From positions 1 through 64,000 of the forward strand of contig NZ_KB899294.1 of assembly GCF_000378145.1 (NCBI RefSeq): 64,000 nt of DNA, in the 5' to 3' direction. The DNA comes from Saccharibacillus kuerlensis DSM 22868. Lineage in GTDB: Bacteria > Bacillota > Bacilli > Paenibacillales > Paenibacillaceae. Under the pieces are notes generated by a model. It searched no databases, was not told the DNA's origin, and saw nothing but the letters and a program-made list of their open reading frames with translations. Shown in pieces: positions 1 through 58,912 of the stretch. Each line of letters starts with the position of its first letter. Position 1 is the stretch's first letter. A program made the translations under genes and the position numbers.

Positions 1-232
1 TACGATTTGGCGAGCTTTTGCGAAAAATAATTGCATATGGGCACTTATTGGGCTTTACGTTGAATCTTATGGATGAAATCTTATGAGACGCGTCCCATTC
101 CGGCATATACGCGAACCAATGATCGGCTTCGTATTTTACGTTCAGTGGCTTCATTTAAATTTGGAAACCGGATTTGGGCGTTGAAAGTATCTTCTATTCG
201 AAAAAGTTGATAAGTTTGCGTACATGCCCTAG
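1..232. repeat. Partial copy A of the four-palindrome repeat element
   Basis: This is the right part of the dispersed noncoding element seen complete at 42306-42719. One 24-bp palindrome (AATAATTGC-N6-GCACTTATT type) lies at 26-49, preceded by the same spacer (ATTTGGCGAGCTTTT) found in copy D. The right half matches copy D except for an extra stretch of about 25 bp near 60-85. It ends at CTAG (229-232) next to TTTGCGTACATGCC, the terminal repeat shared with other copies. The rest lies left of the window. It abuts the 3' end of the GH38 gene. Confidence 0.8.
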
Positions 233-9204: not shown

Positions 9205-9743
9205 TGGAAGAGCGATCCGATTTAAAGATTTAAATGAAGCCGATGCACGTAAATGCGAAGTCGATTATTGGTTCGCGTACACGTCGTAATGGGATGCGTT
9301 GAACAAGAAATGATGAATAAGATTCGTCTAACGGGAAACGATAAAGATAAATAGGATGCGTCCAACAAGATGCGTTTAATTAAGAAGTGACTAACAAGAC
9401 GTGTCTAAATAAGAAGTGTCTAACAAGACGTGTCTAAATAAGAAGTGTCTAATAAAATTCGATAAACAAAATTCAACGTAAAGCTCAATAAGTGCTCACA
9501 TGCACTTATTTTTCGCAAAAGCTCGCCAAATCGCATAATAAGTGCGCAGGTGCAGCTATTTCACGTGAAAGTACAGTTAGAAACGCAAAAACGCTGAAAT
9601 AAGTGTATGAGAGCACTTATTCCAGCGAAAGTTAAAAATTCGAGAAAAATAAGTGTATAGGCGCACTTATTTTTCTTTTTCCCTCTTACACCTTCAATAG
9701 ATTTTTCGGATCTGGCTGAAATAGGTTTGCGTACAGCCCCTAG
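9205..9743. repeat. Copy B of the four-palindrome repeat element (inverted)
   Basis: Four 24-bp palindromes of the type AATAAGTGC-N6-GCACTTATT lie at 9487-9510, 9537-9560, 9598-9621 and 9648-9671, with starts 50, 61 and 50 bp apart. The spacers (26, 37, 26 bp) are the reverse complement of those in copy D at 42306-42719. The right end reads TTTGCGTACAGCCCCTAG (CTAG at 9740-9743). The left part (about 9205-9310) matches the reverse complement of copies A and D but has lost the terminal repeat. An internal segment (about 9370-9460) has expanded as a tandem repeat. No coding potential. Confidence 0.85.
9391..9448. repeat. 29-bp tandem duplication inside copy B
   Basis: Two perfect 29-bp units (9391-9419, 9420-9448), each made of two 14-15-bp halves (CTAACAAGACGTGT and CTAAATAAGAAGTGT). 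Degenerate halves flank them on both sides. Confidence 0.9.
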
Positions 9744-23429: not shown

Positions 23430-23570
23430 AGTATAATGCTGAAGCTGTTGCTAACGTTGAAGCTGTTGCTAACGCTAACGCTGATGCTAATACTGAAGCT
23501 GAAGCTGAAGCTAATGCTGAAGCTGAAGCTAATGCTGAAGCTAATGCTGAAGCTAATGCTGACTGCCGAA
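23430..23570. repeat. Tandem repeat of GCTGAAGCTAAT type
   Basis: About 130 bp of six-base modules GCTGAA, GCTAAT, GCTAAC and GCTGTT in changing order after the membrane vWA gene. The minus-strand frame (Ser-Phe-Ser-Ile repeats) is an artefact of it. Confidence 0.9.
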
Positions 23571-24072: not shown

Positions 24073-24257
24073 AATAAGTGCGTATATACACTTATTCCAG
24101 CTTGTTTTTCTTTTTATTTCAAAATAAGTGCACCAGTACAACTAAATGAGCGCTTTTCGACTAGAACTCCCCATTTTTCAATAAATAGTTGTATGAGAGC
24201 ACTTATTTCGCAAAAACAAAGGCAAATCGATTATTTAGTTGTATATGAGCATCTATT
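24073..24257. repeat. Copy C of the four-palindrome repeat element (eroded)
   Basis: Palindromes at 24073-24096 (good), 24123-24146 (half-decayed), 24184-24207 (good) and 24234-24257 (decayed), with starts again exactly 50, 61 and 50 bp apart. The spacers and outer parts have diverged and no terminal repeats remain. Confidence 0.85.
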
Positions 24258-42268: not shown

Positions 42269-42307
42269 AAAAGCGGGGTTCGGTTTAAAACCGGACACCG
42301 CTTTTTT
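42269..42307 (+). terminator. Terminator of the DUF2750 gene
   Basis: AAAGCGGGGTTCGGT pairs with ACCGGACACCGCTTT, followed by T-run. The last bases overlap the left end of repeat element D. Confidence 0.85.
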
Positions 42308-42719
42308 AGGATCTGTATGCAAAGCTGCTTCAGCAAAATCCGAAAGAATTTATTGAAGATGTAATAGGGGAAAAAGAAAATAAGTGCGCCTGTACACTTA
42401 TTTTTTCCACATTTTTAACTTTCGCTGAAATAAGTGCTCCTATACACTTATTTCAGCGTTTTCGCGTTTCTAACCTTACTTTTATGTGAAATAGTTGCAT
42501 CTACGCACTTATTGTACGATTTGGCGAGCTTTTACGGAAAATAATTGCATATAAGCACTTATTGGGCCTTACTGGAACGCGTCCCATTACGGCATATATG
42601 GGAACCAATAATCGGCTTCGTATTACGTTCAAAGGCTTTATTCAAACTTGGAAACCGGACCTGGGCGTTAAAAGCATCTTCTATTCGAAAAAGTTGATGA
42701 GATTGCGTACACGCCCTAG
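42306..42719. repeat. Copy D of the four-palindrome repeat element (complete)
   Basis: 414 bp. Four 24-bp palindromes at 42379-42402, 42429-42452, 42490-42513 and 42540-42563; start spacing 50, 61, 50. The left end TTAGGATCTGTATGCAAA and the right end TTGCGTACACGCCCTAG are imperfect terminal inverted repeats (12 of 16 positions after TAG). The termini carry TTAG and CTAG, which could be four-base target duplications. No ORF. Same unit order as copy A, inverted in copy B. Confidence 0.88.
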
Positions 42720-42796
42720 TGGATTTTAAGCCTTTGCTGAATAAACCTGTTGGTGAATGACTAATAAATAGGGTGAAAAAACTCGGATTTAAGGGG

Positions 42797-57287: not shown

Positions 57288-57311
57288 CAAGGTAACTAAA
57301 TAACCGACTTA

Positions 57312-57416
57312 TGAGAAACGCAAACCGGCCGAAAGACCGGGACGCAAAGTCAGGAATCTAAAGCGACAAGTTCGCCATGATCGTCCGACCGCCGCAAATC
57401 TATGTGGCGGTCTTTT
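57312..57416 (+). ncRNA. c-di-GMP-I (GEMM-I) riboswitch with terminator, upstream of sortase
   Basis: The aptamer has GCAAACC, a stem capped by a GAAA loop (CCGGCCGAAAGACCGG), GGGACGCAAAG, and a second arm with UCUAAAG/CAUGA elements that can act as receptor for the GAAA loop. The terminator GACCGCC/GGCGGTC with TTTT follows (57387-57416). The layout is that of a transcriptional switch. Confidence 0.82.
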
Positions 57417-58478: not shown

Positions 58479-58657
58479 TGCTTATATAAAAGTGCTTGCC
58501 AACCGATATAAAAGATAGCAGCCTGTAATCTAGAAGTCAGCAAGTCGGCTTTATACTTAGTTTTGATTTGAAACATGACTTTAGTCGTTTATTTTTCGGG
58601 AAAATCTGGCTTGCTAAATTGCTTTTATATGATACGATATGACTACGAGAGCTTTCT

Positions 58658-58757
58658 ACGATAAACGGCAAACCTGATCGAAAGACAGGGACGCAAAGCT
58701 AAAGGGCCTTACCTATAGGGGATAGCAGCCAGCCGCCGGAAGATAGGTCTTTTTTCG
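58658..58757 (+). ncRNA. c-di-GMP-I riboswitch 1 of the first transglutaminase-like gene (transcriptional)
   Basis: GGCAAACC, CCTGATCGAAAGACAGG stem with GAAA-type loop, GGGACGCAAAGC, then GGCCTTACC...GATAGCAGCC. The terminal part can re-pair: ACCTAT with ATAGGT followed by six T (to 58756), a terminator that competes with the aptamer. Confidence 0.9.
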
Positions 58758-58826
58758 TGTACATCTCTACTTGTGCCTTGGGCACCCCATTAACAGATGG
58801 GTTTTCATTAAATAGATAAGACTAAA

Positions 58827-58912
58827 ACGATAAACGGCAAACCTGATCGAAAGACAGGGACGCAAAGCTAAAGGGCCTTACCTGTAAGGGGATGGCAGCC
58901 AGTTACCGAAAG
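58827..58912 (+). ncRNA. c-di-GMP-I riboswitch 2 (translational)
   Basis: Shares about 57 identical bases with riboswitch 1. It has no terminator. Its closing stem (CAGTTACCG) runs directly into the GAAAGGAG ribosome site of the gene at 58924, so it probably controls translation. Confidence 0.88.

Follow-up and report, generated by a model that had tools for sequence, protein, structure and literature searches.

The element repeated in the window (the 64,000-nucleotide stretch analysed here, from the 4.70-Mb genome of Saccharibacillus kuerlensis DSM 22868, called G000 below) is a 185-base array of four palindromic boxes, which hold a fixed spacing over freely changing intervening DNA. Its register and orientation pattern, the constraint on its sites and their spacing, its patchy distribution and the insertion-sequence-related carrier of its young copies are read directly from the DNA. 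We consider it probable, with room for doubt, that the array is a dyad-symmetric site at the DNA level on which a putative DNA-binding protein assembles. It is an unusually strong indication of an undescribed nucleoprotein machine when a four-site geometry is held to the base while the intervening DNA drifts, and many species of a large bacterial family carry this geometry tens of times per chromosome.

Register and orientation of the sites

The window holds three full copies of the array (B, C and D) and a partial one (A), with the following features.

1..232, + strand: copy A, right part of a MITE copy truncated at the contig end, with site 4 and the right terminal inverted repeat (TIR)
26-49: copy A, site 4 of the array
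214-231: copy A, right TIR
9216..9742, - strand: copy B, MITE-borne, TIR at 9725-9742
9487..9510, no strand: copy B, first palindromic site, AATAAGTGCTCACATGCACTTATT
9537..9560, no strand: copy B, second site (+50)
9598..9621, no strand: copy B, third site (+61)
9648..9671, no strand: copy B, fourth site (+50)
24073..24257, no strand: copy C, bare array without MITE ends, sites at 24073, 24123, 24184 and 24234
42307..42720, + strand: copy D, MITE-borne, right TIR at 42701-42718, left TIR near 42307 degenerate
42379..42402, no strand: copy D, site 1, forward, strong half AATAAGTGC on the left
42429..42452, no strand: copy D, site 2 (+50), forward
42490..42513, no strand: copy D, site 3 (+61), reversed, strong half GCACTTATT on the right
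42540..42563, no strand: copy D, site 4 (+50), reversed

The initial annotation had described four sites at exactly 50-61-50 in three copies, which the start positions, read directly, confirm; it was right and understated the case, the element occurring at about 43 places genome-wide when partial ones are included. The register is kept in copy C, although its spacers are unrelated to those of copies B and D; the greater length of these two is due to both of them sitting within a MITE. The partial copy at 1-232 is, as noted there, a further instance, namely the same MITE as in copies B and D, truncated by the contig end. In copy B the far end is degenerate, and a second TIR was not found there.

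Searching the window for the site gave 11 matches at up to 3 mismatches, against 0 in 100 shuffles; two of the sites of copy C lie beyond this threshold, the one at 24123 with 5 mismatches and the one at 24234 with more than 5, the latter being visible only in the extracted array. A sequence-agnostic detector of palindrome pairs, applied to the window over the range of 30-120 bp, returned only distances of 50, 61 and 111. Genome-wide, where a check had been proposed, the spacing is likewise not random: a single-site search of G000 with at most 1 mismatch and no assumed spacing yields 71 places (0 for a reversed-pattern control), 69 of which have a partner at 50, 61, 111 or 161 bp (+/-1), while the remaining 2, unpartnered, both lie at contig ends. 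R1, a profile built from 25 aligned arrays, has at least 89 matches in G000, where most arrays are matched on both strands because they are self-dyads; a hand count of these matches, with partial arrays at contig ends included, gives at least 43 distinct arrays.

Across seven genomes, 101 of 140 distinct arrays (identical cores and the loci of other species excluded) are exactly 50-61-50, and the other 39 are off by 1 bp in at least one interval, the interval detector tolerating only +/-1 bp. Site pairs less than 200 bp apart in the loci of five genomes fall nearly all at 49-51, 60-62, about 100, 110-112, about 150 and 160-163 bp; as the loci outside G000 were chosen with R1, which embodies the register, this amounts to agreement and not to independent proof. 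Many arrays of P. rubinfantis have a spacing of 51. The intervals had been likened to about five and six helical turns, and this holds well, with 50, 61, 111 and 161 bp all fitting 10.0-10.2 bp per turn.

The sites also have a direction. In G000, sites 1 and 2 read approximately AATAAGTGC-N5-T(A/G)CA(A/C)(C/T)TATT forward and sites 3 and 4 the same in reverse, such that the polarity of the array is -> -> <- <-, two sites each way around the dyad. Each site is an imperfect palindrome, strong in its outer half and weak in its inner half. The outer half is near-invariant in G000, G002 and G011 (the last a congener of the window's genome), its final C being present in 97-99% of sites as compared to 21-38% for the inner half; over all seven genomes, the outer C is found in 96-100% of sites. 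However, this asymmetry is not universal, since both halves are strong in S. alkalitolerans and P. sacheonensis, where the last base of the inner half is as conserved as that of the outer (0.96 and 1.00).

Arrays of more than four sites are present in G002 and G011. Two of them (L132, L141) have forward sites at 50, a flip at 60-61 and then reversed sites at 50; three others (L149, L150, L167) read 50-50-61-50 or 50-61-50-50, and L131 strings together 22 sites at intervals of 49-50, 61-62 and, in one case, 72, the site directions of these four loci being ambiguous or mixed. Within clusters, the gaps separating adjacent arrays vary, from 49-50 (L131) through 70-82 (L136, L139) to 230-255 (L132). 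A second class of sites occurs in P. rubinfantis, with another palindrome (approximately AACTGCA-AAAG-TGCAGTT) at 51-62-51, once 52-62-52, and full four-site arrays in five of the seven loci examined. As this class has its own palindrome in a similar register, the geometry is kept while the site sequence changes. The arrays do not look like CRISPR arrays, as near-identical direct repeats are absent and the sites vary and invert at the dyad.

Constraint on the sites and the case for RNA

How strongly are the sites held? Among 12 young MITE copies in G000, pairwise difference is 1.0% in the framework and 4.8% at the variable arm positions, as against 23.5% in the centre, 13.2% in the spacers and 19.5-23.7% in the MITE flanks, which makes the framework bases about 20 times more conserved than the MITE flanks. 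Gap cells per aligned cell in the same copies amount to 0.000 in the sites and 0.002 in the spacers, as against 0.014 for the right flank and 0.160 for the left; the spacer value is slightly lowered by the composition of the set, which leaves out contig-end copies, the diverged L058 and L059, and L047 and L051, both of which have lost their right part, L051 being also one spacer base short. A hypervariable site centre, suspected from 13 copies, was dropped, since the centre changes at the rate of the MITE flanks.

The same constraint is seen between more distant arrays. In same-genome pairs with a spacer identity below 40%, arm bases are on average still 77-91% identical in six of the seven genomes, P. 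rubinfantis being the one without any such pair. Between P. rubinfantis and P. timonensis, six orthologous arrays are 91% identical in the framework, 64% in the spacers and 41% in the 60-bp flanks, with gaps scored as differences; the weakest pair (L235/L252) retains 66% of its framework bases, and as all six pairs were found via their sites, site loss is under-counted here. An intergenic region common to Saccharibacillus sp. CPCC 101409 and S. alkalitolerans has an array in both species with spacers that cannot be aligned (L201/L220).

Is it DNA or RNA on which this constraint acts? The initial annotation had left a protein-bound array and a multi-hairpin RNA side by side, on the observation that the arms mostly stay paired. 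The pairing is real for the invariant bases. Where the arm bases vary, however, Watson-Crick pairing in the 560 sites is at the level of shuffles within genome and slot, with a small excess at position 5 only (0.57 vs 0.53; 2 of 500 shuffles reach the observed value), so that the search for compensatory arm changes, now carried out, ends with weak covariation at one position. An RNA function, in which the arrays would be transcribed as hairpins to serve as sRNA, sponge or 3' UTR element, we therefore regard as improbable. It could draw on the folding energies (z = -5.0 for copy D and z = -3.2 for copy C), which follow from the palindromes themselves and would be expected of any palindrome array, and on the 52-nt repeats of B. 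coagulans, which the available text of one report describes as transcribed (PMC8625621). But in addition to the near-lack of arm covariation, the weak halves lie on opposite strands either side of the dyad, the halves being mirrored across it and not strand-consistent, and an RNA would have no evident need of a fixed 50-base pitch. A scan with Rfam at the gathering threshold found no family at the arrays; around copy D, a further scan listed 11 sub-threshold matches, none near its cut-off. The protein-bound array is thus the part of the earlier proposal that stands, with good support from the constant register over unrelated spacers, the constraint on the sites and their orientation.

Carrier, turnover and gene context

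Two of the three full window copies (B and D) ride in a MITE of an IS4/5-type transposon, as does copy A. The ends of this MITE, TAGGGC.TGTA.GCAAAC, also bound four 835-bp units in G000; in the one unit that was read, two separate frames match PF13340 and PF01609, which are pieces of an IS4/5-type transposase. As a possible target site duplication, a TA is found at both ends of the MITE copies, where it is indistinguishable from the TIR. Given these shared TIRs, one may ask whether the element is an ordinary IS4/5-type MITE in which the palindromes are incidental. We give this very little credence, as the diverged arrays of G000, copy C among them, are in register and yet have no MITE ends within 130 bp on the left or 300 bp on the right, the arrays of other genomes keep their sites over other sequence, and the conservation of the framework far exceeds that of the MITE flanks. 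The arrays without MITE ends and the framework conservation together contradict a plain MITE as the whole story; the MITE is the carrier of the young G000 copies.

Mobility could have a more direct part. A selfish element, mobilised in trans by a putative recombinase or transposase, might have the array as its cis-acting end or recombination site, a reading that we hold to be unlikely; equally unlikely in our view is its corollary that the sites appear conserved since only intact ones spread, each lineage having moved many times. In their favour, array positions turn over, two arrays of P. timonensis having no counterpart in the corresponding intergenic regions of P. rubinfantis; in addition, many within-genome copies align with ends near the array edges, and presence among congeners is patchy. 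The intergenic regions at the two P. timonensis arrays differ throughout between the species (434 vs 12 bp and 445 vs 55 bp) and show no clean boundary; as the entire intergenic region differs, the two empty sites are uninformative on target duplication. On the other hand, the recurrent neighbour families that were looked up contain no transposase or recombinase, orthologous arrays retain their sites after their flanks have diverged, long tandem versions exist, and the centre evolves at the rate of the flanks, like a free spacer. Moreover, the Y1 (RAYT) transposase PF01797 is matched in none of the nine array-bearing genomes of the genus; its only match among 16 genus genomes is in G007, which itself has no array match.

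REP/REPIN elements are dispersed intergenic palindromes in many copies. The arrays differ from REPINs in that their four sites keep a fixed register while the spacers are free to vary, and a REPIN/RAYT identity was rejected on the absence of the Y1 transposase from the array-bearing genomes of the genus. A viral or plasmid origin was also rejected: two exact patterns had no match in viral contigs, nor had copy D, by blastn, in plasmids and phages.

In two different arrays, L058 (at about 2260, end of G000 contig C10) and L063 (at about 280-300, start of C3), one and the same foreign sequence end, TAGGCCTGTTGATTA..., interrupts site 4 close to the middle; this is probably an insertion sequence that picks the palindrome; a 68-codon frame behind the insertion in L058 has no Pfam match. 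A MITE-borne or interrupted array lies at or near an end of the G000 contigs C3, C9, C18 (the contig of the window), C21, C31, C38, C40 and C45, and the assembly seems to break at this repeat.

Of 39 genomes, 15 have an R1 match, that of the window among them. Within the genus, 8 of the 15 other genomes have a match and 7 do not, and in a sample of the family Paenibacillaceae, at least 92 of 245 genomes in 15 of 19 genera match, a lower bound as 10 candidates were scored per genome. A scan of contigs for the exact framework, which again gives a lower bound, found species of Saccharibacillus, Paenibacillus and Cohnella, and one Clostridia MAG; the last (L222) has another palindrome in direct tandem at 60-61 bp and was discounted. 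G005, an array-free congener, has no R1 match in its whole genome, and the sequence-agnostic palindrome-pair detector found nothing at 50/61 in 400 kb of it.

A neighbour gene is common to no more than five pairs of loci among those sampled in G000, G002 and G011; together with the P. timonensis arrays that lack a counterpart, this makes single arrays look dispensable over time. In one P. timonensis locus (L248), a palindromic repeat, GAACGAATTTTCGTTC, lies at 2492-2515 and 2854-2876, on either side of an array that the orthologous region of P. rubinfantis lacks. On the G002 chromosome, the stretch of 2.8-4.0 Mb, one fifth of its length, contains about half of the arrays listed there by a rough hand count.

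The arrays are mostly intergenic, with 9 of 162 lying wholly within an ORF of 130 aa or more, and the gaps they occupy are biased. By mechanical ORF calls, in which some loci count twice under two ids, 40 of 107 array-bearing gaps are convergent as compared to 18 of 110 gaps that are free of arrays and at least 200 bp long, while divergent gaps make up 15 of 107 and 34 of 110, respectively; this bias speaks against a promoter-regulating role. Enrichment between convergent genes and scarcity between divergent ones would suit bidirectional transcription terminators or gene-end insulators. Nonetheless, we see only a slight chance for such a role: a single hairpin is enough for termination, the stems are A+T-rich and a terminator scan of copy D marks none of its sites, the fixed spacing would go unexplained, 52 of the 107 array-bearing gaps are co-directional, and an avoidance of promoters alone could yield the bias.

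The genes next to the arrays were compared over 174 loci, 26 of which are without a full array (contig ends, second class, weak matches). The largest common neighbour family is of the AraC type and reaches 7 of 148 loci, followed by GntR, solute-binding, ABC, histidine kinase and dehydrogenase families, all of which are common. The look-up covered nine members, drawn from seven or eight of the larger clusters among families found at three loci or more, and no gene stands out there as mobilising or acting on the arrays; the family member at L174 has no Pfam match.

Known relatives and a putative assembly

Multiple phased sites on which a protein multimer bends or wraps DNA are familiar from Lrp octamers, ParR on parC and phage 186 CI, where they are known from few loci or from plasmid sites. 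Judged by analogy, the arrays would differ from these in their tens of chromosomal copies, their two fixed pitches and their dyad.

The closest resemblance is to the constant-length 52-nt tandem repeats of Bacillus and other Firmicutes (Subirana and Messeguer, IJMS 2021; PMC8161180). According to the available text of that paper, these are particularly abundant in Paenibacillus and have been assigned no function, the authors proposing a polymerising protein or small RNAs. Like the arrays, they are described there as dispersed and numerous in each genome, with a constant pitch (52 there, 50-51 here) and variable sequence, with short conserved signals and their reverse, with several families per genome and a patchy distribution. 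In 14 of 24 consensus units (of 27 printed; loops of 3-24), the palindrome beats 95% of shuffles. Constant length over variable sequence is thus found in both, the intervals of the arrays varying within 1 bp over unrelated spacers. However, a unit of 51-53 nt is not what is seen in the window and the genus (50, and 61 at the dyad), and the P. rubinfantis arrays at 51 and the second class at 51-52 with 62 would fit it in part. Nor are the arrays head-to-tail runs of at least four units; they usually have four sites, two each way. Conversely, the 52-nt repeats are tandem with a species-specific sequence, and a dyad, a 61-bp centre, an orientation and a family-wide consensus are not described in the text available. 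A literature search on the site sequence, on repeats and palindromes of Paenibacillus and on repeats of Saccharibacillus returned no report of the array among the matches listed. The initial view that the element belongs to no known repeat class is therefore largely upheld, except that its constant pitch and unit design recur, as far as the published text at hand describes them, in the 52-nt repeats (PMC8161180).

What could hold four sites in such a register? For the assembly we favour, we infer a protein, its dimeric state and a wrapping of the DNA from the geometry of the sites. Each 24-bp site, with a half-site of approximately AATARNTGYA occurring twice in inverted orientation about a free centre, would be bound by a sequence-specific and probably dimeric protein. 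As neighbouring sites are 50 bp, or about five turns, apart, the dimers on them would come into contact; at the 61-bp dyad, about six turns, the polarity is reversed, and the outcome would be a closed symmetric complex of four dimers, or of more in longer arrays. The value of 10.0-10.2 bp per turn is what one would expect of DNA bent or wrapped on a protein core. The arrays may have spread by duplication and by hitch-hiking, in G000 on the IS4/5-type MITE, after which selection would keep sites and spacing. No candidate for the protein was found, the neighbouring genes pointing to none; the array-positive and array-negative congeners provide the material for finding it.

As to the cellular role, loop anchoring, nucleoid organisation or insulation between gene ends are guesses; anchoring or organisation would be the likeliest, given the scattered and mostly intergenic positions of the arrays and their scarcity between divergent genes. 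More tentatively, and with less confidence than we place in the assembly site as such, the arrays could be the docking sites of an undescribed protein in symmetric tetrads of dimers with a helical repeat near 10.1 bp. Its DNA specificity would vary by lineage while the geometry of 5 turns, 6 at the dyad and 5 again stayed fixed, and the 52-nt repeats of Firmicutes would be sites of the same protein family. The unexplained 52-nt repeats would thereby gain a testable design of palindromic sites, polarity and dyad.

Elsewhere in the window, imperfect short tandem repeats with a period in multiples of 6 occupy 23434-23562, about 500 bp upstream of copy C. Three c-di-GMP-I riboswitches lie at 57309-57396, 58657-58740 and 58826-58910, two of them in tandem and near-identical in sequence.
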